Virus record (IMG/VR): IMGVR_UViG_3300048919_000070
Coordinates: 1 to 64,000 of that record
Source: a virus
Length of the DNA: 64,000 nt
Direction: 5' to 3' (one strand)
The notes beneath the pieces were generated by a model. It was not told the DNA's origin. It did no database searches and saw only the letters and a program-made list of their open reading frames with translations. Within the stretch, counting starts at the first letter, position 1; each line of letters opens with the position of its first letter. The translations under genes and the position numbers were made by a program. Shown in pieces: positions 41,297 through 53,235 of the stretch.

Positions 41297-43414
41297 TCAA
41301 GACGTTTGAATGTACACGATGCTGATTGTAATGATTGGACGGTGTTTAATCGCATAATCTGGTACCCCATACAGCGTCGGGTCCGGTAGAGCAACCATCT
41401 GCAACGCCATATCGACAGTTAGAGTGGAAGCCGGATTAGCTGGATTCGGGAACGATGTGACTTTCGACACCTGCGTTACTGCCTGACTAACTTCTGCAGG
41501 TGACACCATGTTCGCCGGATCGCCATAATCGGCACTGGTGGAAGCCTGAATCGAAATTTGAGTTAGGGTCACGGATGATACCGGAACCGTCGGGTCAGGG
41601 AAAGTATCGCTTGTTGCTTTTTGCACCACTGCTTGCGTTACTTCCGCCCATACCTGGCTAACCGTAGGATCAGGGTATTCCACTTCGGACGCGATGGTTT
41701 CTACAACCTGGAACGCTTCACCTGGTTGCGCTTCTTTTGTCGGGTCCGGATACGTGTCGTCGGTATATGCGGTCATCACGGAAATCTGGTCGGAATAAAC
41801 GGGCGAAATCGGTTCTGCAGGATCAGGATACACCGCATTACGTGCTACCGCCTCCACCGTTTGTCCGATAAAAATCCCTTTCGTGGCCAGGTCGGACGCA
41901 GGCGTATAGAACAGGTATTGCGATGTCAGTTGTGCCAGTTGCAGCGCGCGGGTGAACGACTGCGGATGTACGACGTCGGAATGCTGCAGCGTCTGGATAC
42001 CCAGTTGGGAAGTAAGCGCGGCATTAACCGGCGGGATCATATCGCCTGGTGATGGGTACTGCGTCCACTGCAGCCATTCCAGGTGCGCCTGCGGAACAAC
42101 GGCCGGAGACGTCCAGACAGGCAGAGGGTTCGACTGCAGCGCCACCATGGCCATCTGCGGAACGGCCGTTTGCGACTGCATGATATCCGGATTGGTGTAG
42201 TCCGTGTCCTGCGTGGCCACCTTCAATACGGACTGCATGGCATTCGTTTTGCCGATGTCGCCAGGCGGGTCGTACAGCGCTTCCTGCACCACCAGTTCGG
42301 CTAACTGCAGCGCGCGGGTATCAGACTGCCAGACCGGCAGCGGCGTAGACTGCACCACCTGCATAACGTTCTGGCCAGCGAGGTTGGGACCAACGATAAG
42401 CGGCTCGCCATCGGTGTGCTGCAGCGCGACCATGACTTCCTGATACACCTCGTCGGTACCCTGATCCGGCAGCGGCGACGTGTAGTCGAACAGGGTCTTC
42501 ATGGCCACCTGACTGACGGCGGTATCCGACCACGGCAAATAGCCCATAGGCGTCTGCTGGAGGACTTTAAACGACACATGGTAGGCCGTGGTGGTCGAAC
42601 GCGGCAGGAAGCCCATAGGGGTGCGGTACAGTTCCCACTGCGCCAGCGACAGCGCGTAATGCGGAGACTGCCAGATCTGCATCGGGGTTTGCTGAACGAC
42701 CTGCATCGCCTGCTGAGACACGTAGTCCATGGACACCGGAACGTGCTGGTGGATATCCGACTGCAGCACCTGCATGGCTTCGGACATAACGGCTGTCATG
42801 CTCTGCGGCGGCGAGAAAGTAATCTTCTGGACGGCCTGCAGGGTTTCCGACATCACGCGGGTCTGCGACCACGGCATCGGGGCAATCACCTGCTGGACAA
42901 CGCGCTGGACTAACTGAACGGCGCGAGTCGTGGAGATCGTGTCCGCCGTGGACGGGAAGTCCGTTTTCTGGCTGACCTTCTGGAAGAACTGCGGCACGTA
43001 TGCGGCGGATCCGGTTTCCACCTGATTGATGATGAACGCCAGACGGCCGGTAGAGACGAAGCCCGCCGGTGGCCGGATGATAAAGCCGAGGCGGGATGTC
43101 TGAACGAGGCCGACGAAATCAGGGGTGCGGGTTTGTGCCGTCAGCGCGGTAAGGCGGTATGACGCCATTCTGAGCGTCGGCGCGTCCAGGTAGACCATTC
43201 CTACGCGTTCAGTGGAAACGACACCTTTCAGATCCGGATTGCGGGTGGCCGACGCCAGCACGGTAAGGCGATAGCTCGCCATGCGGATGTTCGGGGCGTC
43301 CTGATAAAGCATGGCCAGACGCGACGTAGAAACTATGCCGCCAAGGTCAACGCTACCCCCTCTGTACGTCAGCGCCACCAGCCGGTAACTGGCGACGTTA
43401 ATATCTTCGGCCAT
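41297..43414 (-). CDS. Tandem-repeat structural protein, unknown
   Basis: 705 residues, ATG 43414 with AGGGA upstream. Two repeat classes are visible. Residues 1-125 hold about three copies of a ~40-residue unit: ASYRL-x2-L, a TR-x-PDL or similar, G-x-VST-x-R, then Y-x-DAP. From about residue 160 to 680 there are about a dozen degenerate ~40-residue units with a-x-Q-x-A-x-VALQ-like helices and P-x-PVWQS or YPDP turns. The sequence is rich in Gln, Val, Ala, Pro and Thr, with almost no Cys. Likely an elongated virion fibre; no known family recognised. It sits between the lectin-like array and the lysis genes. Confidence 0.7.
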   Translation of the reverse strand: MAEDINVASYRLVALTYRGGSVDLGGIVSTSRLAMLYQDAPNIRMASYRLTVLASATRNPDLKGVVSTERVGMVYLDAPTLRMASYRLTALTAQTRTPDFVGLVQTSRLGFIIRPPAGFVSTGRLAFIINQVETGSAAYVPQFFQKVSQKTDFPSTADTISTTRAVQLVQRVVQQVIAPMPWSQTRVMSETLQAVQKITFSPPQSMTAVMSEAMQVLQSDIHQHVPVSMDYVSQQAMQVVQQTPMQIWQSPHYALSLAQWELYRTPMGFLPRSTTTAYHVSFKVLQQTPMGYLPWSDTAVSQVAMKTLFDYTSPLPDQGTDEVYQEVMVALQHTDGEPLIVGPNLAGQNVMQVVQSTPLPVWQSDTRALQLAELVVQEALYDPPGDIGKTNAMQSVLKVATQDTDYTNPDIMQSQTAVPQMAMVALQSNPLPVWTSPAVVPQAHLEWLQWTQYPSPGDMIPPVNAALTSQLGIQTLQHSDVVHPQSFTRALQLAQLTSQYLFYTPASDLATKGIFIGQTVEAVARNAVYPDPAEPISPVYSDQISVMTAYTDDTYPDPTKEAQPGEAFQVVETIASEVEYPDPTVSQVWAEVTQAVVQKATSDTFPDPTVPVSSVTLTQISIQASTSADYGDPANMVSPAEVSQAVTQVSKVTSFPNPANPASTLTVDMALQMVALPDPTLYGVPDYAIKHRPIITISIVYIQTS

Positions 43415-43423
43415 CTGCTATCC

Positions 43424-44527
43424 CTAAGATTTAATGGAAAAGCCGGTCTTCACGGCAGACAGGTCTGCGATAGTCCAGTTATTCCCGTCGGGTTTTTTAT
43501 CCAGGTACAGAGGGCGGTACGAGTATGAACTCGTCGGTGGCAACATGATGTCCCCTGTCGACACGTTGCCAGCCCCGAAGTTCGCTTCGGTTGTCAGGAC
43601 GTGCGTTGCTCCACCGAAGTTTCCAAGATAGGATTCCGCCCCCACAGACAATACCTGCTGCAGCGATTCAAAGCCAGCCAGTACACCGCCCTGTTGATAC
43701 TGCTCGCGCTTGCCGACCACGTTGGACGTGATGTATCCGGTAGCGTTGACGGTGTTGACGAAGTCTGACAACTGGCTGTAATGCGCGGTGCCGTCGCCGC
43801 CAGTCCACTCGGTAATCACGTCTGCCGTGGCCGCAACCGGAAGAATGCGCGCCGTTCTGCCAGGGCGATACTGCAGGCCGGGATTACTCAGGTCGACGGA
43901 AACGAAGTCCAGCAGGTCGACAGTGATCGCTGGCGGCGGTGAAACCGTAGTGACGTTACTAACCAGCAGATACAGGAATCCTGGCGTGGCCGGATTGACG
44001 ATAGAGGTACCGGCAGGCGGGGTCATTAAGAAATCGTCCAGCCAGACTTTATACGCGCCAGCAGCAGAACGGTAGATTTCCACCGTGTAGAACTTGTCGT
44101 AGTTGAACGCGAACGTAACCGGCTGAGTAGTCGTCTGCTGACCATTGTTGGTCGGACCGAACAGGTTACTGTTCATATACCAGAACGTCGTGTTAACGGC
44201 GTTGGTCGCGGCTGCGATCATATTCAGACGGAACGCCACCATTCGCGCGCTGCCGTTGTTATTCACGCGCAGGCGGAACGACATGTAGCCTTCGCCATTC
44301 GTAGGGAAAGGCAAGCCGTAAGTCTGCCCCTGACTGTTAGCCGCGTTGGCGAGGGTGTACGTGATTCGAAGCCCTCGACGGTTGATGGTCGCGCCTGCCG
44401 GTGTCGTGTCTGACATCACGACCATCTGCGCGGACGCGTAAGACGTGTCTGCCGGAATGCTAAGACCTCGCGTGTTAAGCGAGGCGATGTCCGGTACGTT
44501 GAAGTTTTCTAAGCGATAGACGCCCAC
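43424..44527 (-). CDS. Lectin-like tail protein, paralogue 5 of array
   Basis: 367 residues, GTG start 44527 with AAGGGG 5 nt upstream. Shares the array's signatures: a ConA/LamG-like beta-strand unit (FYTVEIYRSAAGAYKVWLDD), the segment YITSNVVGKREQYQQGG, and the C-terminal NWTIADLSAVKTGFSI. The N-terminus (GVYRLENFNVPDIAS) differs from the DGF start of the others, making it the most diverged copy. Probably a virion surface or receptor-binding component. Confidence 0.7.
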   Translation of the reverse strand: MGVYRLENFNVPDIASLNTRGLSIPADTSYASAQMVVMSDTTPAGATINRRGLRITYTLANAANSQGQTYGLPFPTNGEGYMSFRLRVNNNGSARMVAFRLNMIAAATNAVNTTFWYMNSNLFGPTNNGQQTTTQPVTFAFNYDKFYTVEIYRSAAGAYKVWLDDFLMTPPAGTSIVNPATPGFLYLLVSNVTTVSPPPAITVDLLDFVSVDLSNPGLQYRPGRTARILPVAATADVITEWTGGDGTAHYSQLSDFVNTVNATGYITSNVVGKREQYQQGGVLAGFESLQQVLSVGAESYLGNFGGATHVLTTEANFGAGNVSTGDIMLPPTSSYSYRPLYLDKKPDGNNWTIADLSAVKTGFSIKS

Positions 44528-44536
44528 GGTAGCCCC

Positions 44537-45721
44537 TTAGTTTAAAAGTTTGATACCCATTGCAGCAGCGGTGATCTCGCTTGGTGTCCACTTTAAACCG
44601 GTTTTCGGGTTCAGAGAAACATCGAACACGTAGTTATTCATCGTGCTGAGTACCAGCGTTCCCGACTTCGCGCTTTGCCCGTTGGTGCCGTCATACTGCG
44701 TGGCCGCCGTCAGTGTGTGCGTACCGTCTGCCATGGTCATCCCGTAGGCTTTTACCGCGACGCCATAAACGGTGGCCGCATTCGCTGCCACGGCATCCGG
44801 ACCCACATACAGGTCGGTGGCCGCAGAACCGGCCGTAAGATACGAAGGCGTGGCCAGTTCGTTGGTTTGCTGCAGGACTGCGGCGTTCGACGCGAATCCG
44901 GTAGGGCGATCCCACTGAACGGAGAAGTCTGCCTGCGGTGCCAGTTCCAGTACGCGCGCGCCAGGACCGAGAACGCCGGTATGAACCGCGTCAATGCCAA
45001 GCACGTACATGTTAGAGAAGATCATGTCGTGGAAGCCGTTGCCGTTGTTCGCGTTGTTCCCTGTCCACATGCCAACGCCGAAGCCGTTCTTCGTCTTGAA
45101 CGTTCCGGTGTACGCCACGTCCAGAACCAGAATCCCGTTAGCGTATGCACGAAGGCGCTGGACATCCGTTTCGATAAGGATTTCGAAGTGGATGTCGGTG
45201 TTCGCCTTCAACTGGTCGGAAGTCGTTGTTTCCGTACCTGCCGCGCTGTATGCGATCCCCGCTGTAGTCCCGTCTGTCGGAAGGAAGAACCGGCAAAGAA
45301 GACCCGGAGGCGTGGCCGTCGAGTTAGCTGGCGGCGCTGTTACCATTGACCCATCGAATACACAAATAGACGGACCGGTCGTCGCGCTGGATACCGTCGG
45401 GACAAACTGGCACATGAAGCCGATGACGAACTTGTCATACGGCGTCGTTTCGATAGCCTGCATAAGCACACTCAGCCAGGTAAACGCCGTGGCCGAGTTT
45501 TTACGGAGGTTCAGTTTGTTGCGGGTGGCAAAGACCGGATCCGCCTGAATGATTGCCTGCGTGTTCGAAAACGCGGCCGATGTTCCGTTGATGATGCTGT
45601 ACGGGATCCATCCTGCCTTGTACAGAAGCGACGCTTGCCCTAACGCCGTGGTTGTGCCGTTAGGGAAAGCGATAGTCTGCCGAGCAAGGGTAGTGAAGCC
45701 GTCCACGAATTGTACGGACAT
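44537..45721 (-). CDS. Lectin-like tail protein, paralogue 4 of array
   Basis: 394 residues, ATG 45721 with AAGGAG 5 nt upstream. Begins MSVQFVDGF, has HFEILIETDVQRLRAYANG (LamG-like strand, turn, strand), then VLGIDAVHTGVLGPGARVLE, a divergent SYLTAGSAATDLYVG, and ends LKWTPSEITAAAMGIKLL. Longest member, with an Ala/Thr-rich insertion near residue 130. The family resembles jelly-roll carbohydrate-binding domains, but ligand residues cannot be read. Confidence 0.72.
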   Translation of the reverse strand: MSVQFVDGFTTLARQTIAFPNGTTTALGQASLLYKAGWIPYSIINGTSAAFSNTQAIIQADPVFATRNKLNLRKNSATAFTWLSVLMQAIETTPYDKFVIGFMCQFVPTVSSATTGPSICVFDGSMVTAPPANSTATPPGLLCRFFLPTDGTTAGIAYSAAGTETTTSDQLKANTDIHFEILIETDVQRLRAYANGILVLDVAYTGTFKTKNGFGVGMWTGNNANNGNGFHDMIFSNMYVLGIDAVHTGVLGPGARVLELAPQADFSVQWDRPTGFASNAAVLQQTNELATPSYLTAGSAATDLYVGPDAVAANAATVYGVAVKAYGMTMADGTHTLTAATQYDGTNGQSAKSGTLVLSTMNNYVFDVSLNPKTGLKWTPSEITAAAMGIKLLN

Positions 45722-45730
45722 ACAGTCTCC

Positions 45731-46765
45731 TTAGCGCGTCACGATGCCGAAGGTTGCTGATTCGACGGCGTTCTGCGACCACGAACCGCCACCTGGAGGG
45801 GTTTCGTAGGTAGTCTGCAGGTACTTGTTCGTCTCAATCAGGGATAACTGCTTCTCGTCGCTAATGCTGTTTACGGTCAGCTTGAGGCCGAGTTTACGGT
45901 CATCCAGGTCGCCCTTACGCGCCAGCGCCACCAGACCCACGCCATAGATCGTGTTGCTGTTCGGCAGCACGGCATTGGAACGGAACTCGTCAGTGTTGCC
46001 ATTCACGTTGGACTGCAGGTACGGCTTGTTCGTTTCCAGTGGGGCAAGCTGCGCGGCCACGTCGTAATGGTTGGTCGGTGCCGGTGACGCGCCGTTCGGA
46101 ACAATCGTCCACTGCGTCGTGATATCTGCAGTCGGGAAGCGCGTGTTCACGGAGCACGGACCAAGGCGGTCAACGCGGGTGCCGGTTGCGTTATCCAGTA
46201 CGTAGAGGTCGTCGATAATCTGAACGCCAGCGGCGGACTGAGTAGCGGTCTGTCCCCAGGTGATTGTCACCGGATTGGACGGCGCGGTACCCATGGCCAC
46301 GGACAACTGCAGTTCGTCGTTCGCATACACCGTGATGGTGTTGGCTGACGTGTCCAGCACGACTTCAATGAAGTACCACGCGTTCAGGATCAGCACCGCG
46401 GCGCCAAGCGTAGAGCCGATTTTCAGCTTACCTGTCGTCGGATCCCAGTCGAGGTCGAGAACACCGCCTTCGATACGGCAGACACGCATACGCGCGCCGG
46501 TTGCCTTAATGGCGAAGCCGAAGACAATCTTCGTTGCGCCGACAGCCGGAGTGTAGCCCCACGAAATAGATGGAACGGTAGACGAACTGGCCGGTACCGA
46601 GAACTGCAGGGCGCGCTGGCCAGTGATGCGGCCGTCGACAATCGCCAGTGTGGTAGACGTCGGGTTTCGAACGGTGTAGTTCGCCGCCTCCAGGTATTTC
46701 TGGACGACGGTGCCTACCTGGCCAACTGGGGTGTAATGGTCGAAACCATCAATCCACATAAGCAT
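45731..46765 (-). CDS. Lectin-like tail protein, paralogue 3 of array
   Basis: 344 residues, ATG 46765 behind AGGAG. MLMWIDGFDHY, WYFIEVVLDTSANTITVYAN (ConA/LamG-like), IDDLYVLDNATGTRVDRLGP, PYLQSNVNGNTDEFRS and the ending WSQNAVESATFGIVTR. Most typical member together with the next gene. Only 9-13 nt separate it from its neighbours, so all are made from one message. Confidence 0.75.
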   Translation of the reverse strand: MLMWIDGFDHYTPVGQVGTVVQKYLEAANYTVRNPTSTTLAIVDGRITGQRALQFSVPASSSTVPSISWGYTPAVGATKIVFGFAIKATGARMRVCRIEGGVLDLDWDPTTGKLKIGSTLGAAVLILNAWYFIEVVLDTSANTITVYANDELQLSVAMGTAPSNPVTITWGQTATQSAAGVQIIDDLYVLDNATGTRVDRLGPCSVNTRFPTADITTQWTIVPNGASPAPTNHYDVAAQLAPLETNKPYLQSNVNGNTDEFRSNAVLPNSNTIYGVGLVALARKGDLDDRKLGLKLTVNSISDEKQLSLIETNKYLQTTYETPPGGGSWSQNAVESATFGIVTR

Positions 46766-46778
46766 GATTTATCTCCTG

Positions 46779-47747
46779 TTACGGTCTGACGACGACACCG
46801 AATGGGGTGTCCTGCAGGTTAGTGTTGTCCCACGCCACATTACCAGGTGCCTGCGGGAAAAACGAGTAAAAGTATTTCGGGGTAACGTCCAGGGTAGTGA
46901 CGAGATTCTCTTTCTGCGTCGACCCCTTCGGTCCAACCACCACGCCCATCTGGCGGGCGTCGATATCGTTCTTGCGGGCGCGCACGACCACGCCTACGGC
47001 CGTAATCGTTCCGGTACCGGCTGTCGCGCCGGACTTGAACAGATCCTGCGCCCCGCTGACGGAAGACTTGATGAACTCGGTTTCCGACGGCGGAAGGTTA
47101 TCCACCATGGCAAAGTGATCGTCGCCGGTAGCGGGACTCCACTCTTTCAGGAAATCACTGGTCGGCAAACGCATCGTAATGGCCTGCGGTCCAACGCGCG
47201 CTACCGGCGCACCGCCAGAACCGTTGTTCAGCACGAAGATATCGTCCACGCGCTTCACGCTCTTAATCGGCGCCGCCCACGTACAGTCGAACGTCGTCAG
47301 GCCGGTCATCGCGGCGGGCAGCGGTACCGTCAGATCGAGAACGTTGTTGATGTACACCTGAATCTGGTTCTGGTTCTTATCGATCACCATTTCGTAATAA
47401 TACCAGACGCCCAGTACAGGGGTGACAGTGCCTTTCGCGCCGTTGATCTGAATCTTGTCCGGCCACTGCAGGGTAACGCCGTTTGCAATGGCCACGATGT
47501 CGTCACGCTGCGTCTCGGCCATGTAGGCGAATCCGATAACCGTCAGCGGCGCCGTGGACACGAACGCGCGTTTAATTGAGCCTGCCAGGTTAGTCGTGCC
47601 GAGCATGACCGCTTTGGTGTCGCTGTTGCGGCCGTTGCTAATGGCCACGCTGCCCGACACGGTGTATCCGGCTGCAGGTAGCTCGGTTGCCACCTGCGAC
47701 GTTGACATATTGGAAAACTGTTCGAAACCGTCCATATGGATCAGCAT
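46779..47747 (-). CDS. Lectin-like tail protein, paralogue 2 of array
   Basis: 322 residues, ATG 47747 behind AGGAG. MLIHMDGFEQFSN, WYYYEMVIDKNQNQIQVYIN, VDDIFVLNNGSGGAPVARVG, EFIKSSVSGAQDLFKSG and the ending WDNTNLQDTPFGVVVRP. Same domain order as its neighbours: short DGF start, about 200 residues of beta-sandwich, then a second beta-rich part with the S-x-V-x-G motif. Confidence 0.75.
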   Translation of the reverse strand: MLIHMDGFEQFSNMSTSQVATELPAAGYTVSGSVAISNGRNSDTKAVMLGTTNLAGSIKRAFVSTAPLTVIGFAYMAETQRDDIVAIANGVTLQWPDKIQINGAKGTVTPVLGVWYYYEMVIDKNQNQIQVYINNVLDLTVPLPAAMTGLTTFDCTWAAPIKSVKRVDDIFVLNNGSGGAPVARVGPQAITMRLPTSDFLKEWSPATGDDHFAMVDNLPPSETEFIKSSVSGAQDLFKSGATAGTGTITAVGVVVRARKNDIDARQMGVVVGPKGSTQKENLVTTLDVTPKYFYSFFPQAPGNVAWDNTNLQDTPFGVVVRP

Positions 47748-47750
47748 GGG

Positions 47751-48692
47751 TTAACTCCTGTTCAGCACTGCGCCGAACTTCTCGGCCAAGATGGATTCCG
47801 CCGTGTCGCTCTGTACCGGCACATCCGAGTAACGATACTTCCAGTCCATCGGAATATCCGTGTTCGGGACATTGCGGCCGCCGAACTTCATTGTCAGGGT
47901 CAGGTTGTCGACGGTCGTTTTACGGACTAACGATACCAGACCGAGCGCCAGAACGTTATTGTTATCCGGCAGCGTTTGCGAAGACGTGAATGATTCTTCT
48001 GCGCCCGTCACGTTGCCGATCAGGTAACGGTCAAGTTTATCCGTCGGCAGCGGACCAACCATCGCCCAGTGTGCGGCAGTTGGGCTTGTGGACGGCGCCC
48101 ACTCGTTCGGAGTTTCGTCCTTAGTAGGGAAGCGCGTCACGATCTGCATTGGCTGGATGCGCGCGCCGTCGTTCATGTAGAAGTCGTCGTAGTTCTTCGT
48201 TGACCCGACATCATCCGGCACCGCGTTCCACGGATTGAGGCGGCAGGTCACGACGTTGGCAGTGGCCAGTTCTTCCGGCATGGTGCCGACGAAATCCTGA
48301 CGGCCGTTAAACCAGACGACCATCTGGCGGGCGTTGCGGCGTAGCTCCACCTCGCAGTAATACCAGCGGGACTTCACAGGGCCGGCATTACCGGTTTCCC
48401 CGCCAACGAAGTACGGGCGGCCGGTAGATACGCTGAGAGCCAGGGTAACGCCATTGTTAAACTGGATCAGCGCGCCCCGCTTATCGAACTGAAACGCGAA
48501 GCCGACGGAGAAGCGATCCCCCGACCATGGCCACCCGCGCGATACTGAACTGCTGGCGCAGACAAGCGAACGTCCTGTTTTGCGACCGGTCCCTGTCACC
48601 ACGTTCCCCAAAATGGTGTAATCGGCCAACCGCATTTCCGCCGCCGGATTCTCTGCTTTGTCGAATTGTTCGAATCCATCAATGAATGGCAT
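47751..48692 (-). CDS. Lectin-like tail protein, paralogue 1 of array
   Basis: 313 residues, ATG 48692 behind GAGGT. MPFIDGFEQFDK, WYYCEVELRRNARQMVVWFN, YDDFYMNDGARIQPMQIVTR, RYLIGNVTGAEESFTSS, and the ending ESILAEKFGAVLNRS. The closest to the tail-tip gene. Shortest copy. As with the others, a role in the virion tip or fibres is inferred from position and fold. Confidence 0.75.
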   Translation of the reverse strand: MPFIDGFEQFDKAENPAAEMRLADYTILGNVVTGTGRKTGRSLVCASSSVSRGWPWSGDRFSVGFAFQFDKRGALIQFNNGVTLALSVSTGRPYFVGGETGNAGPVKSRWYYCEVELRRNARQMVVWFNGRQDFVGTMPEELATANVVTCRLNPWNAVPDDVGSTKNYDDFYMNDGARIQPMQIVTRFPTKDETPNEWAPSTSPTAAHWAMVGPLPTDKLDRYLIGNVTGAEESFTSSQTLPDNNNVLALGLVSLVRKTTVDNLTLTMKFGGRNVPNTDIPMDWKYRYSDVPVQSDTAESILAEKFGAVLNRS

Positions 48693-48700
48693 GTTCTACC

Positions 48701-49426
48701 TCACGTCACGATGTTCAGGCGAAACGCCCAACCGAAGTTCTTGAATCCTGCGATGATATCAGTCGGCGCTTTAATAGCGAAGATGTCCCCCGCACCGAAT
48801 GACACCGGACTCGGAATGTCGAACTGGCCAGTGGTAGAGCCGGAAGGGATCATGATTCTCCCGACCTTCGTGGCGTTTCGGTAGATGGCCAGTTCAACGT
48901 ATCCCGGACTACCGGCCACCAGCCGGAATGAACTACCTACTGCGTTCTTAGGCAGGGACACCGCCTGCACCAGCGGCAGGAACATGATCCACTCGTCTTT
49001 GTCCACTGCGTAAGGGACAGTACCGCCGATGTCATAGTAAAGCGGGAGGACGCCTGGGTCAGTTCCCGGGGTTTGGCCGGTTGTCTCGTCGACCCACTGC
49101 ACCCCGTTATACCAGATCCACGCTTCGATATTGACCAGTCGGGCGCGCAGGCCACGCGTCGGGGTGAAGAACACCCACTGGCCAGCGAGACGATACGCCA
49201 TCTTGCCGTCCTGGTTAGCCCAGTCGCCGGAAGAAGGCGTGGCCACAATGTACTGATCGCCGTCCTCAACGTTCTGAGGCGGCGACCCGAAGTTCATGTT
49301 CAGGATGTAGGGGTTCATCAGGGCGTCCATCAGAACCATGTTTTGGTTCATCGGACCGCCCCAAAAATCCTCCCCTGCAGCCCAACCGTACAGCACCCCG
49401 AAACGGGGCGCGGTAACTGCTGGCAT
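48701..49426 (-). CDS. DUF2793 tail protein
   Basis: 241 residues; ATG 49426 has AAGGAG 9 nt upstream, while a longer frame extends into the tail-tip gene. Residues about 10-110 match DUF2793: GVLYGWAAGEDFWGGPMNQN, MDALMNPYILN, NVEDGDQYIVATPSSGDWAN, and DGKMAYRLAGQWVFFTP. The C-terminal half is beta-rich and unassigned. DUF2793 proteins are found with tail-tip genes in siphophages and gene transfer agents. Confidence 0.8.
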   Translation of the reverse strand: MPAVTAPRFGVLYGWAAGEDFWGGPMNQNMVLMDALMNPYILNMNFGSPPQNVEDGDQYIVATPSSGDWANQDGKMAYRLAGQWVFFTPTRGLRARLVNIEAWIWYNGVQWVDETTGQTPGTDPGVLPLYYDIGGTVPYAVDKDEWIMFLPLVQAVSLPKNAVGSSFRLVAGSPGYVELAIYRNATKVGRIMIPSGSTTGQFDIPSPVSFGAGDIFAIKAPTDIIAGFKNFGWAFRLNIVT

Positions 49427-49437
49427 ATTGATTCTCC

Positions 49438-52400
49438 TTAAAGCGTTTTCGGCAGAGTGTTCGCCCAACCATGATCCCAGTCGTATGACCATGAGCCTTC
49501 GAAGTCAGGGTCTGGCGGCTCCGGCGGGTCAACGATGATTGGCGGAATCTCCGGTGGCCAGTCAGGGTCTACTGGGTCAGTCGGGTCTGGCGTCGTCGGG
49601 TCAGTCGGGTCTGGCTCATTCGGACCACCAGGATCGCCTGGATTGCCGCCGCCACTTCCGCCACCAGAACCACCGCCAGGTTGATTGCCGCCGCCAGGCT
49701 GCTGACCAGGAGGACAGGCATTCGTCGGAACACTGACATAAAACGAGTATCCCTGCCATGATTCTAAACCACTTGGGTTCACTGCGAACAGCGTCATCAT
49801 GATTGTCACGTTGCCGCAGGCGTTGAACACCGGCCCCGCTTTCGCGCCGTCCGCTTCTGCCATGGCCGCGGTGTACGTGAAGCCGGTACCGTCGATGTCG
49901 TACTGACGCAGGGTAAATTTATCCGCGCCGCCTTTGCTGTTCGGCAGAACGTAACCCACCCAAACGCGATACTTGACGCCAGGTTCCGGACCAATGTTGC
50001 CCGCTGTATGGTCTACCGCGTCCCCCGCCTGAGACAGACGGTCGCGGTGTGTCCACGACAGGTTGACGTCGCGCGCATGGTAGATGCCCTGAGCGTCACG
50101 CGTGAACGCATCGGTACGAATCCACCAGCGATGGTTGTCGATATACACGTCGCCAGGGGCATACGGCCGGACCGGTCGCGTCTTCATCTGGATGTTCGTC
50201 TGCGGCACCTGATCGAGCGGGTACGGGACGGTGTGGGTTTCCGGTTTCAGTTTCACGCCCACCCACTCCTGACCGCCGTAGACGTAGCCGGAGATGGCGT
50301 TTTTCTTCTGGAAGAACCAGATCGGCGTGTTGCGGTAGTGAATCGCGGGAACCGTGTCTGCCACGCCGCGGCCGAGCACCAGGAAGCCGTTGCCGATAGA
50401 GTCGATGCGGACGATCTCTTTATCAATCAGGGCGAGGTCGCCTACGGAAATCCCCTCCAGCGGTACGCCGTCCTGTTCGGATGTCGCGCCAAACGAAACC
50501 TGCGTATCCAGGTAATCCAGATTGGTGGTTGTCACCGCCCACGGAGTGAACGCGCCGGAGCCGGACGACTGCCAGTTCTTAGGCGTGTACACCGGATTGC
50601 CTTTGCTGTCGTAGGTAACATCCAGCGCCGAGGACCAGAACTCATAGCCATCGGTCAGACGGTCAGAAGTACGGGCAACCACGCCCATCGGACGCGAGTT
50701 AGACAGGCTGAGATTCAGGCGATACAGTTCCAGGTACGGCGCTTCGAACAGCGTGGCATCCATGACCACCGGCATGAGCGTCATCTGGCTCGCTGCCTGA
50801 CCAAGTGAAGCCATGGCCAGACCGTCAGTCGGCATACCGCTGCCATCGCTGTCATCAACGTCGGTTGCGGTCTGCTGGCCAAGTGAAGCCATCATCAGGC
50901 CATAAGTCGGGGTAGAGTCGTCCCCGCCGTCCGTATCGCTGACAGTCATGGACGTCTGCTGCGCAAGCTGCGCCATCTGCAGATAGGTCGCCACGTCTTC
51001 CACCTGAATCTGGATCCGGTAGCCCTGCCACGATTCGTAATTATTCCGGCGCGTGAACAGCGTCGCGGACATGTCGAACACGCGGCCGTCGTCCTGCTCG
51101 GTCACGCCAAGGTCAGACATAGCCTGCGTCCACAGATACTGATAAGACGTTCCGGTGATGCCGGTTTCCTGACGGACGAGAACGTTCTGGTCGTTGTAGA
51201 AGCGCAGGACATACGACGTGCCTGGCTCCGGACCAATGTTCCCGATTTCGTGATCCACGCGGGTATCTTCCTGCGCCACACGATCGCGGTGTTTCCAGGA
51301 GATAGTCAGTACCGGAGCATTCTTGCTTAACGACGTTTTCACGTACCAGCGCCACTGATCGTTCAGCCAGACATACCCTGGAGCATACGGACGGTAGAAG
51401 CGGAAGTTCATGACAACGGTATCGATCGGCGCGTCTTCCAGTGGGTACCGGCCAGCGAGGGTGTACGGCAGCACTTTGCCGTCGACAGTCTCGCCGCCCA
51501 CGTAGGCCACGGAATCCGAACCGACTTCGTCTTCGAAGAACCACGCCAGTTGTCCGGCTGCTTGTGGGGCCGGCACCGTGTCATAAACGCCACGCGCTAC
51601 CGTCAGCCAGTATTCGTTACCCATCTCGGCGATAGCGTCCACGCGCATAATCTCTTCGCCCAGGTAGATACACTCGCCCACCACCATCTCGTCTTCGTCT
51701 TTCAGCTTGTTCAGTTTGACGGTGGTAGTCAGGTAGGAAATGTTCTCCATCAGTTCGCCGAGCGGAACGAAGCCCCCTTGGCCACGGATTTCGAATGAGG
51801 ATTCGCCGCCCGCGCGCATGGCCAGATCGTAGCCCATCGACAAACTGGTAGGCTTTTCTGCGGCCATGCCGTAATAACCCCATTGCGGTTGGATGGCGTT
51901 GAACTCCCCTGGCGGGTACATGCGGTTCAGGAGCGCGTAGGGAACCTCGTAGGCGCGTCGGCGGGCGATGGACGGCAAACGGTCAGGTGGATTCGTTACC
52001 GGCGGCTGTACGGCCGCTGTACCGTTCACAGGCATGGCGAAGACGTCTTCCACTGCAGAGATATGCAGATAGCCATCGGTCATCGGCATTTCTTCCACAG
52101 CACCGGCACGAATGGCGATGTCGATGCCCCCGCGCTTAGGATCCTGAATACGGAAGACGGTACCAGGCTGAATCTTCCAGCCGCGGTGGTCGACCTTAAT
52201 CTTGAATCCGCGGAGGGGCAGCGCCTGCGCATTCAGGTCGCGGTCAGCGAGACGTTGGGCCAGCTCGGCAGTCGGCGCGCCCATGTAGTCGACGTTGCTG
52301 GAAACGATCGACCCTGCAGTCTGGATACCGGCCAGGTTCTGCGAGCGCACCTTCCCGTCTTCGTTCGACAGCGGCGAGTGATAGCCGACCACGATTTCGT

Positions 52401-53235
52401 TAATCAAACTGGTACCGGCGGCCACCGAACATTCTTCCACGGCGATAAGGCCGGAATCGTTCGTGAACACCGGCAACTGTTCAAACACGTAATCGTCGCG
52501 GATCAGTTTAATCGTCAGCAGGCCGGTCTGTTTATCGACGTACATCGTGGCGCCGAGGTGGTCCAGAATGTTCTGCGCGAAGGAGTCCAGGTTGTCGGTA
52601 CGTTTCCACGCAAGGCAAAGCCCCATCCCTTCTGAGTAAGCAAGGTCAGCAGCGTATTGCCATTGCGCTTCGTACATCGCCGAACGCGGGATGCCACGAC
52701 CCCACACTCGGTTGGTGCACGCTTCATACAGGATGTGGACGCCGTTCATCGACTGGATGGTGCCGACGCGCGAATGCCCGTCATCATCGGTGTACGTGGT
52801 GGTCTGGTCGATGCGAATCTTCGACGGGTACCACGTAGCGCCGTCCCACCCCTGCAGCAGTCGGCGCAGTTTGAACGCCCACGGTTTCGGGTACGGGTTC
52901 ATGGCGCAGACCATGCCGTCAAAGAACAACGTCACGATGCCCCTGAACTCCGGCGACAAACCTGGCAGAATGGACTTCACCTTAGCCGAGACAGTCTGGC
53001 TTTCCCCGCCCAGGTAAAACTCGGCGTTCCCGTCGATACCACCTTCGGCCTTGGTACCGCCGAAAAGCTCCGGCTTACTGATCTTGAAAGCGGTGTTGGA
53101 CGTCATCTCGCCCGTCCATGCCGTCCGGTCGCCCACGCGGATTTCCAGCAGCGCGTCGACCGGTCCCCGGCACATCCCCATTTGCATCGACATTAAGTAT
53201 TTAAAGCCGACTGTAACGTTCTTGGCCTTACCCAT
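49438..53235 (-). CDS. Tail tip / host attachment protein (gpJ-like)
   Basis: 1265 residues, ATG 53235 with GGAG upstream. The N-terminal ~400 residues (VTVGFKYLMSMQMGMCRGPV, LLEIRVGDRTAW, FDGMVCAMNPYPKPWAFK) are typical of the large siphophage tip proteins. An approximately 250-residue module occurs twice (ARGVYDTVPAP and RGVADTVPAI, RPYAPG, SWKHRDR/SWTHRDR, GNIGPEPG). Between the copies is a linker with three M/A-x-L-x-QQT-like units. The last ~100 residues are Gly/Pro/Asp low complexity. It would form the distal tip and contact the receptor. Confidence 0.88.
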   Translation of the reverse strand: MGKAKNVTVGFKYLMSMQMGMCRGPVDALLEIRVGDRTAWTGEMTSNTAFKISKPELFGGTKAEGGIDGNAEFYLGGESQTVSAKVKSILPGLSPEFRGIVTLFFDGMVCAMNPYPKPWAFKLRRLLQGWDGATWYPSKIRIDQTTTYTDDDGHSRVGTIQSMNGVHILYEACTNRVWGRGIPRSAMYEAQWQYAADLAYSEGMGLCLAWKRTDNLDSFAQNILDHLGATMYVDKQTGLLTIKLIRDDYVFEQLPVFTNDSGLIAVEECSVAAGTSLINEIVVGYHSPLSNEDGKVRSQNLAGIQTAGSIVSSNVDYMGAPTAELAQRLADRDLNAQALPLRGFKIKVDHRGWKIQPGTVFRIQDPKRGGIDIAIRAGAVEEMPMTDGYLHISAVEDVFAMPVNGTAAVQPPVTNPPDRLPSIARRRAYEVPYALLNRMYPPGEFNAIQPQWGYYGMAAEKPTSLSMGYDLAMRAGGESSFEIRGQGGFVPLGELMENISYLTTTVKLNKLKDEDEMVVGECIYLGEEIMRVDAIAEMGNEYWLTVARGVYDTVPAPQAAGQLAWFFEDEVGSDSVAYVGGETVDGKVLPYTLAGRYPLEDAPIDTVVMNFRFYRPYAPGYVWLNDQWRWYVKTSLSKNAPVLTISWKHRDRVAQEDTRVDHEIGNIGPEPGTSYVLRFYNDQNVLVRQETGITGTSYQYLWTQAMSDLGVTEQDDGRVFDMSATLFTRRNNYESWQGYRIQIQVEDVATYLQMAQLAQQTSMTVSDTDGGDDSTPTYGLMMASLGQQTATDVDDSDGSGMPTDGLAMASLGQAASQMTLMPVVMDATLFEAPYLELYRLNLSLSNSRPMGVVARTSDRLTDGYEFWSSALDVTYDSKGNPVYTPKNWQSSGSGAFTPWAVTTTNLDYLDTQVSFGATSEQDGVPLEGISVGDLALIDKEIVRIDSIGNGFLVLGRGVADTVPAIHYRNTPIWFFQKKNAISGYVYGGQEWVGVKLKPETHTVPYPLDQVPQTNIQMKTRPVRPYAPGDVYIDNHRWWIRTDAFTRDAQGIYHARDVNLSWTHRDRLSQAGDAVDHTAGNIGPEPGVKYRVWVGYVLPNSKGGADKFTLRQYDIDGTGFTYTAAMAEADGAKAGPVFNACGNVTIMMTLFAVNPSGLESWQGYSFYVSVPTNACPPGQQPGGGNQPGGGSGGGSGGGNPGDPGGPNEPDPTDPTTPDPTDPVDPDWPPEIPPIIVDPPEPPDPDFEGSWSYDWDHGWANTLPKTL

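Follow-up and report, generated by a model that had tools for sequence, protein, structure and literature searches.

A lectin-like protein array encoded at the tail-tip locus of a chi-like phage: a conserved trio followed by two apparently exchangeable modules

Results

Gene Organization of the Tail-Tip Region

The window analysed in this study was a 64,000-base stretch drawn from a 64,605-base IMG/VR virus record. Its nearest annotated relative was the Erwinia phage pEp_SNUABM_08 (Gwanakrovirus, Casjensviridae); in the comparison with this Gwanakrovirus sequence (SNUABM08), 78% of 12 kb was matched at 83.7% identity. Judged from this related sequence and from the common tail-tip gene order, the window phage is a chi-like phage (Casjensviridae). 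The order on the minus strand was J tip protein, short fibre, five lectin-like genes (slots 1 to 5, here s1 to s5) and a 705-aa repeat protein. The J or hub protein (positions 49438-53235, 1265 aa) gave a Phage-tail_3 match, and its residues 3-1262 matched PDB chain 8vjh_A, a 'minor tail protein', with E=0. The short tail fibre protein (48701-49492, minus strand, 263 aa as listed) contained DUF2793 (Pfam PF10983). The array comprised s1 (47751-48692), s2 (46779-47747), s3 (45731-46765), s4 (44537-45721) and s5 (43424-44527), the last of which had a GTG start codon. These minus-strand open reading frames of 313, 322, 344, 394 and 367 aa confirmed the five consecutive genes of 313-394 residues that an earlier note, made from the sequence of the window, had described. 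The ribosome site that it gave each gene was likewise found, with a Shine-Dalgarno-like purine-rich stretch before all five starts (TGAGG, AGGAG, AGGAG, AAGGAG and AAGGGG). The note had further placed the array next to the tip gene; the tail-tip context held, but the DUF2793 short fibre gene lies in between. The 705-aa protein (41297-43414, minus strand) is rich in V/T/A/Q/P/S, and the 22/25-residue repeat periodicity of its relatives, together with its position, makes it a candidate long-fibre shaft.

Homology of the Five Array Proteins

The proteins s1, s2 and s3 were mutually similar, with 28-31% identity and BLASTP E values of 2e-18 to 2e-40. Only these three matched the full-length phrog_2448 HMM, over nearly their full length, with E values of 2e-64 for s1, 2e-80 for s2 and 4e-92 for s3. 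The phrog_2448 match of s5 was limited to the C-terminal part (E 2e-8), and s4, which had none, matched phrog_10924 and phrog_6368. The pairwise similarity of s4 and s5 to the family was marginal (E 0.003-0.03). By profile-profile comparison (hhalign), the trio profile matched s4 with 98.3% probability over 327 columns and s5 with 98.6% over 326 columns, while the neighbouring 705-aa protein, taken as a control, reached only 0.1% against the array and is not a paralogue. These results indicated, at the level of sequence homology, that all five array genes are full-length paralogues, with 15-31% identity of the others to s1. The shared ancestry proposed earlier was thus upheld, by BLASTP for three genes and by profile-profile comparison for the other two. 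The literal motif layout proposed with it was present in full in three genes only and in part in s4 and s5. The 394-aa s4 kept the DGF start, and its other motif positions read IHFE, AYAN and MGIK; those of the 367-aa s5 read ENF, FYTVE, VWLD, YITSNVVG and TGFS.

Searches of Pfam and NCBIfam yielded no usable match for any of the five proteins, and a PDB sequence search found no relative of them. The weak PDB sequence matches to botulinum NTNHA (E 0.0095) were rejected as kinship and read as a lectin-type fold in common only. In a mixed alignment of 18 family sequences, conservation was nowhere high enough to scan a collection with. Array genes occur in more than 160 phage records, and most genomes list them as hypothetical.

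Predicted Fold of the Family

The AlphaFold2 model of s3, built with 72 family members, reached a pLDDT of 96.6 and consisted of an N-terminal concanavalin-like domain and a C-terminal beta-sandwich. The predicted ConA-like lectin/glucanase domain (about residues 1-197; 46175-46765, minus strand) was tested as residues 1 to ~200 and aligned to ConA-like domains with VIA-align Z scores of 13.7-18.5 over 165-198 residues. Its fold matches included sialidase lectin domains, Cip1, GH131, alginate lyases, ERGIC-53 and Emp46/47. The C-terminal domain (about residues 197-344; 45731-46177, minus strand), modelled alone by AlphaFold2, was again predicted to be a beta-sandwich, with a pLDDT of 94.4. Its structural matches were weak and of the CBM type (Z at most 7.6), and Foldseek gave no match with E <0.001; the lack of a confident match does not make this modelled domain a new fold.

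Predicted structures of viral orthologues of s1, s2, s4 and s5, assigned to slots by phage and protein length, matched s3 over most of their length with TM of about 0.5-0.9. The weakest match to the s3 model among the predicted viral structures was that of JS26 s5. The predicted structure of an AchV4 virion protein also matched the s3 model over most of its length. Collectively, the models supported a family-wide common fold, with the ConA-like fold of s4 and s5 taken entirely from viral orthologue models and homology. The ConA-like lectin fold expected by the earlier note was therefore predicted for s3 and for the orthologues, and unrelated folds were not found. A ConA-like fold common to the family does not by itself assign a function, and a modelled lectin fold in the array is no proof of sugar binding.

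Distribution and Ancestry of the Array

The order short fibre, s1, s2, s3, s4, (s5) and repeat gene was observed in 30 of 30 chi-like environmental loci (L027-L056), genes cut at contig ends or frame-broken being excepted. The same order was found in named phages including Chi, YSD1, JS26, JC01, Enc34, Redjac, pPM_01 and XAP3, and the AchV4 cassette was a diverged variant of it. The fifth slot is optional and was present in 6 of the 30 loci. The window s1 was orthologous to slot 1 of all chi-like loci, including Chi gp32, and s2 was orthologous to Chi gp33. In a quick tree with SH-aLRT support only, slots 1, 2 and 3 each formed one clade (support 99, 98 and 98), which indicated that the duplications are older than the phage family. 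Together with the recurrent order, these clades argued against a local duplication burst. The earlier view that the genes had been duplicated repeatedly, in contrast to the usual single fibre, was not borne out, since the trio is ancestral and each of its slots is inherited as a clade.

Separate tandem copies occurred in more distant phages; L060, for example, had two sister copies and L064 had four. The four family copies at L064:6962-12678 lie in an apparently different phage and form an independent tandem array. In L044, L050, L051 and L056, slot 2 was enlarged to 623-675 aa and slot 4 measured 712-739 aa; the N-terminal part of the enlarged slot 2 of L050 and L051 matched YCF48/BNR-type propeller repeats. 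Chi-like cassettes were also present in GenBank records labelled as Staphylococcus, Enterococcus and Listeria phages, including the 147-kb SA1 record, and these labels probably reflect wrong hosts or contamination.

Conserved Trio and Exchangeable Slots

In the comparison of the window with pEp_SNUABM_08, amino acid identity was 89% for s1, 85% for s2 and 91% for s3, the most conserved member, against 46% for s4 and 36% for s5; the 705-aa repeat protein was 69% identical. The environmental locus L028 showed the same protein identities as pEp_SNUABM_08. Identity at fourfold-degenerate sites was 0.63-0.71 in s1-s3 and 0.33, that is, saturated, in s4 and s5. The nucleotide similarity was lost at position 45712, nine bases into s4, and returned near 43503, at the end of s5. 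The opposite pattern was observed with locus L045, where s4 was 86% identical and s1-s3 were only 38-52% identical. A recent transfer of s4 between the window and L045 lineages was ruled out because the fourfold sites of s4 were saturated (0.41). Since the protein was nevertheless 86% identical, the allele class common to both appears to be old and strongly constrained. The loci L043, L045 and L027, which carry the slot-4 allele class of the window on different backbones, were obtained from metagenomes whose IMG numbers are neighbouring (33000489xx), which looks as if a single survey had produced them.

The backbone group of the window formed a clade with a support of 100 in both the s3 tree and the tree of the 705-aa gene. 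Constraining this clade was rejected for s5 (p-AU 6e-5) and for s4 (p-AU 2e-93), the s4 test clade having been picked after the identities were known. Across 26 genomes, mutual distance correlations were 0.87-0.96 among the short fibre and s1-s3, and only 0.44-0.57 between s4 and these genes. Between alleles, the N half was more divergent than the C half in both s4 (39 vs 56% identity) and s5 (30 vs 44%). In Salmonella-type chi-like records, s3 was at least 90% identical to Chi in 105 of 110 matching records, and s4 in only 13 of 103. Because the s4 and s5 trees conflict with both flanking genes, the simplest reading of these comparisons is an array made of a fixed trio, s1-s3, and an exchangeable slot 4/5 cassette. 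The saturated synonymous sites suggested that the exchange is old. Fast evolution with saturation could partly mimic such an exchange, but the L045 pattern counters this for s4. By these sequence comparisons, only slots 4 and 5 appear to vary and exchange as expected of specificity modules, and their swapping between phages suggests that they are likely host-recognition parts.

Virion Proteins, Host Dependence and Neighbouring Genes

LC-MS of purified virions has detected two members of the array family, AchV4 gp25 and gp26, at 75% and 36% coverage (PMC7996906). The third and most diverged copy, gp27, and gp28 were absent from the table of MS-detected proteins (PMC7996906), and so was the AchV4 homologue of the 705-aa protein. 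The presence of array proteins in virions thus holds for two AchV4 members. The Serratia phage JS26 shares the five slots and depends on flagella; MS of its virions confirmed 21 proteins, 10 of which are structural-cluster hypotheticals left unnamed in the main text of that paper (PMC8754663). The flagellum requirement of Chi has also been published. Chi-like phages with the same cassette have been described with a single 220-nm fibre (PMC4342425, PMC6631126), which is curly (PMC4342425). A study of 2023 stated that the Chi fibre protein was not shown experimentally (PMC10399903).

The annotated tail fibre gene (the short fibre) matched the R4C fibre in PDB chain 8gtc_S (E 2.6e-6), a chain that carries the label 'Ribonuclease III'. 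The R4C fibre protein forms three short trimers on the tail tip (PMC10276861), and as a relative of this short claw fibre, the annotated chi-like tail fibre is a poor candidate for the 220-nm fibre. The 705-aa repeat gene followed the array directly in every locus that reached that far, and the long chi-like fibre may be built by this adjoining gene. Chi and YSD1 are reported to differ in host range (PMC10399903). Between them, we counted 27 amino acid changes in the repeat protein, 6 in J, 3 in s4 (residues 39, 108 and 151) and 0 in s1-s3 and the short fibre; the repeat protein was the most changed tail protein. Slots 1-3 were ruled out as the cause of this host-range difference because their coding sequences are identical. 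With 3 changes against 27, s4 is not the sole host-range candidate, and we regard the 705-aa protein as a serious fibre and host-range candidate. The Chi tip was reportedly solved by Sonani and colleagues in 2024 with four proteins, none of them from the lectin-like array. Missing from this structure by that report and from the PDB by sequence search, the array may be flexible or lie outside the core.

Discussion

We favour a reading, with a probability of roughly 0.6, in which this chi-like siphophage carries, at the locus, a distal adsorption cassette with an ancient, vertically inherited s1-s3 part, probably structural, and exchanged s4/s5 specificity modules. The homology, the fold, the fixed order, the ancestry of the trio and the exchange of s4/s5 alleles were computed here. 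The presence of two members in AchV4 virions and the flagellum dependence of the five-slot JS26 were shown by others. The position in the virion, the division of labour and the ligand are what we infer. The five would be two-domain virion proteins, with a ConA-like lectin domain at the N-terminus and a beta-sandwich behind it, and would assemble at or past the tail tip and outside the rigid J core. Anchoring or oligomerisation would fall to the C-terminal domain, which is the more conserved, and the N-terminal lectin domain of s4 and s5, which varies more, would touch the host surface, either the flagellar filament or a surface glycan. Slots 1-3 would form the mount for these specificity modules.

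The earlier note had read the five as independent receptor-binding proteins in a multi-specific or branched surface array. The lectin-like N domain of the family and the strong dissimilarity of the paralogues are consistent with independent receptor-binding proteins, but slots 1-3 are conserved and co-inherited across hosts and are identical in Chi and YSD1, and inspection of the s3 model revealed no domain for anchoring or branching. Branching is further not supported because chi-like virions bear one 220-nm fibre. We therefore consider this reading unlikely. It is very improbable that the array proteins are enzymes such as glycan lyases or hydrolases. Although the top structural matches include GH131 glucanases and alginate or glucuronan lyases, and all five share one invariant glutamate in the W-Y-x-E strand, the non-enzymatic lectins ERGIC-53 and Emp46/47 match at similar Z, Pfam and NCBIfam gave no enzyme family match, and the strand with this glutamate is common in lectin-type domains.

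A single long fibre could accommodate the array in another way. The five proteins may be segments or decorations of one long curly fibre on the 705-aa shaft, with the gene order running from tip to distal end and the variable s4 and s5 as the distal part; this agrees with the adsorption-cassette reading on the roles of s4 and s5 and differs on where the proteins are located. Such segments would fit the one 220-nm fibre per chi-like phage, which a homologue of the R4C short claw fibre is unlikely to form alone. They would also fit a flexible part, as no array member is in the PDB though Chi-type J is. The repeat gene adjoins the array in the loci reaching it, and, following the gene order, variability climbs between slot 3 and slots 4/5; other phages have long tail fibres whose proximal segments are conserved and whose distal ones vary. 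However, the placement of array proteins in the fibre is putative, the AchV4 homologue of the 705-aa protein was not MS-detected, and the YSD1 fibre was reportedly assigned by Dunstan and colleagues in 2019 to YSD1_29, which we take from its locus tag to be the J homologue. We regard the fibre-segment arrangement as possible but on balance doubtful. A more specific arrangement seems to us quite unlikely. In it, s1-s3 would be an obligate hetero-oligomer that arose when a homo-oligomer was triplicated and that sits on the three-fold tail tip and mounts one asymmetric fibre. The 705-aa protein would be the 220-nm shaft wrapping the flagellum, and s4 and s5 would be exchangeable heads that decide which flagellin or surface glycan the phage recognises.

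Under the adsorption-cassette reading, telling the fixed trio apart from the two exchangeable modules and singling out the repeat protein yields three named, testable candidates in phages with laboratory hosts (Chi and JS26). They bear on what builds the long chi-like fibre and what determines host range.

Compared with known systems, the s3 model has no beta-helix, unlike branched polysaccharide-degrading tailspike systems. The N-domain fold is like that of L-type or ConA-like lectins (ERGIC-53, Emp46/47 and sialidase lectin domains), but with only 7-14% sequence identity for s3, and ligand binding by the array is putative. The R4C/RcGTA baseplate, with its hub, megatron and three fibre trimers, has a DUF2793-type short fibre beside a large J/megatron, as here; since the PDB holds no sequence homologue of the array, the solved R4C tip is no template for it. 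JS26 has the complete set of five slots, with the repeat gene, in the order of the window, whereas its s4 and s5 are only 36% and 26% identical to those of the window, and the flagellum dependence is that of JS26. Chi (gp32-gp34) and YSD1 (YSD1_31-33) have phrog_2448 family genes that match slots 1-3 of the window in gene order and in copy arrangement. Chi has four slots, whereas the window has a fifth, like pEp_SNUABM_08, JC01 and JS26.
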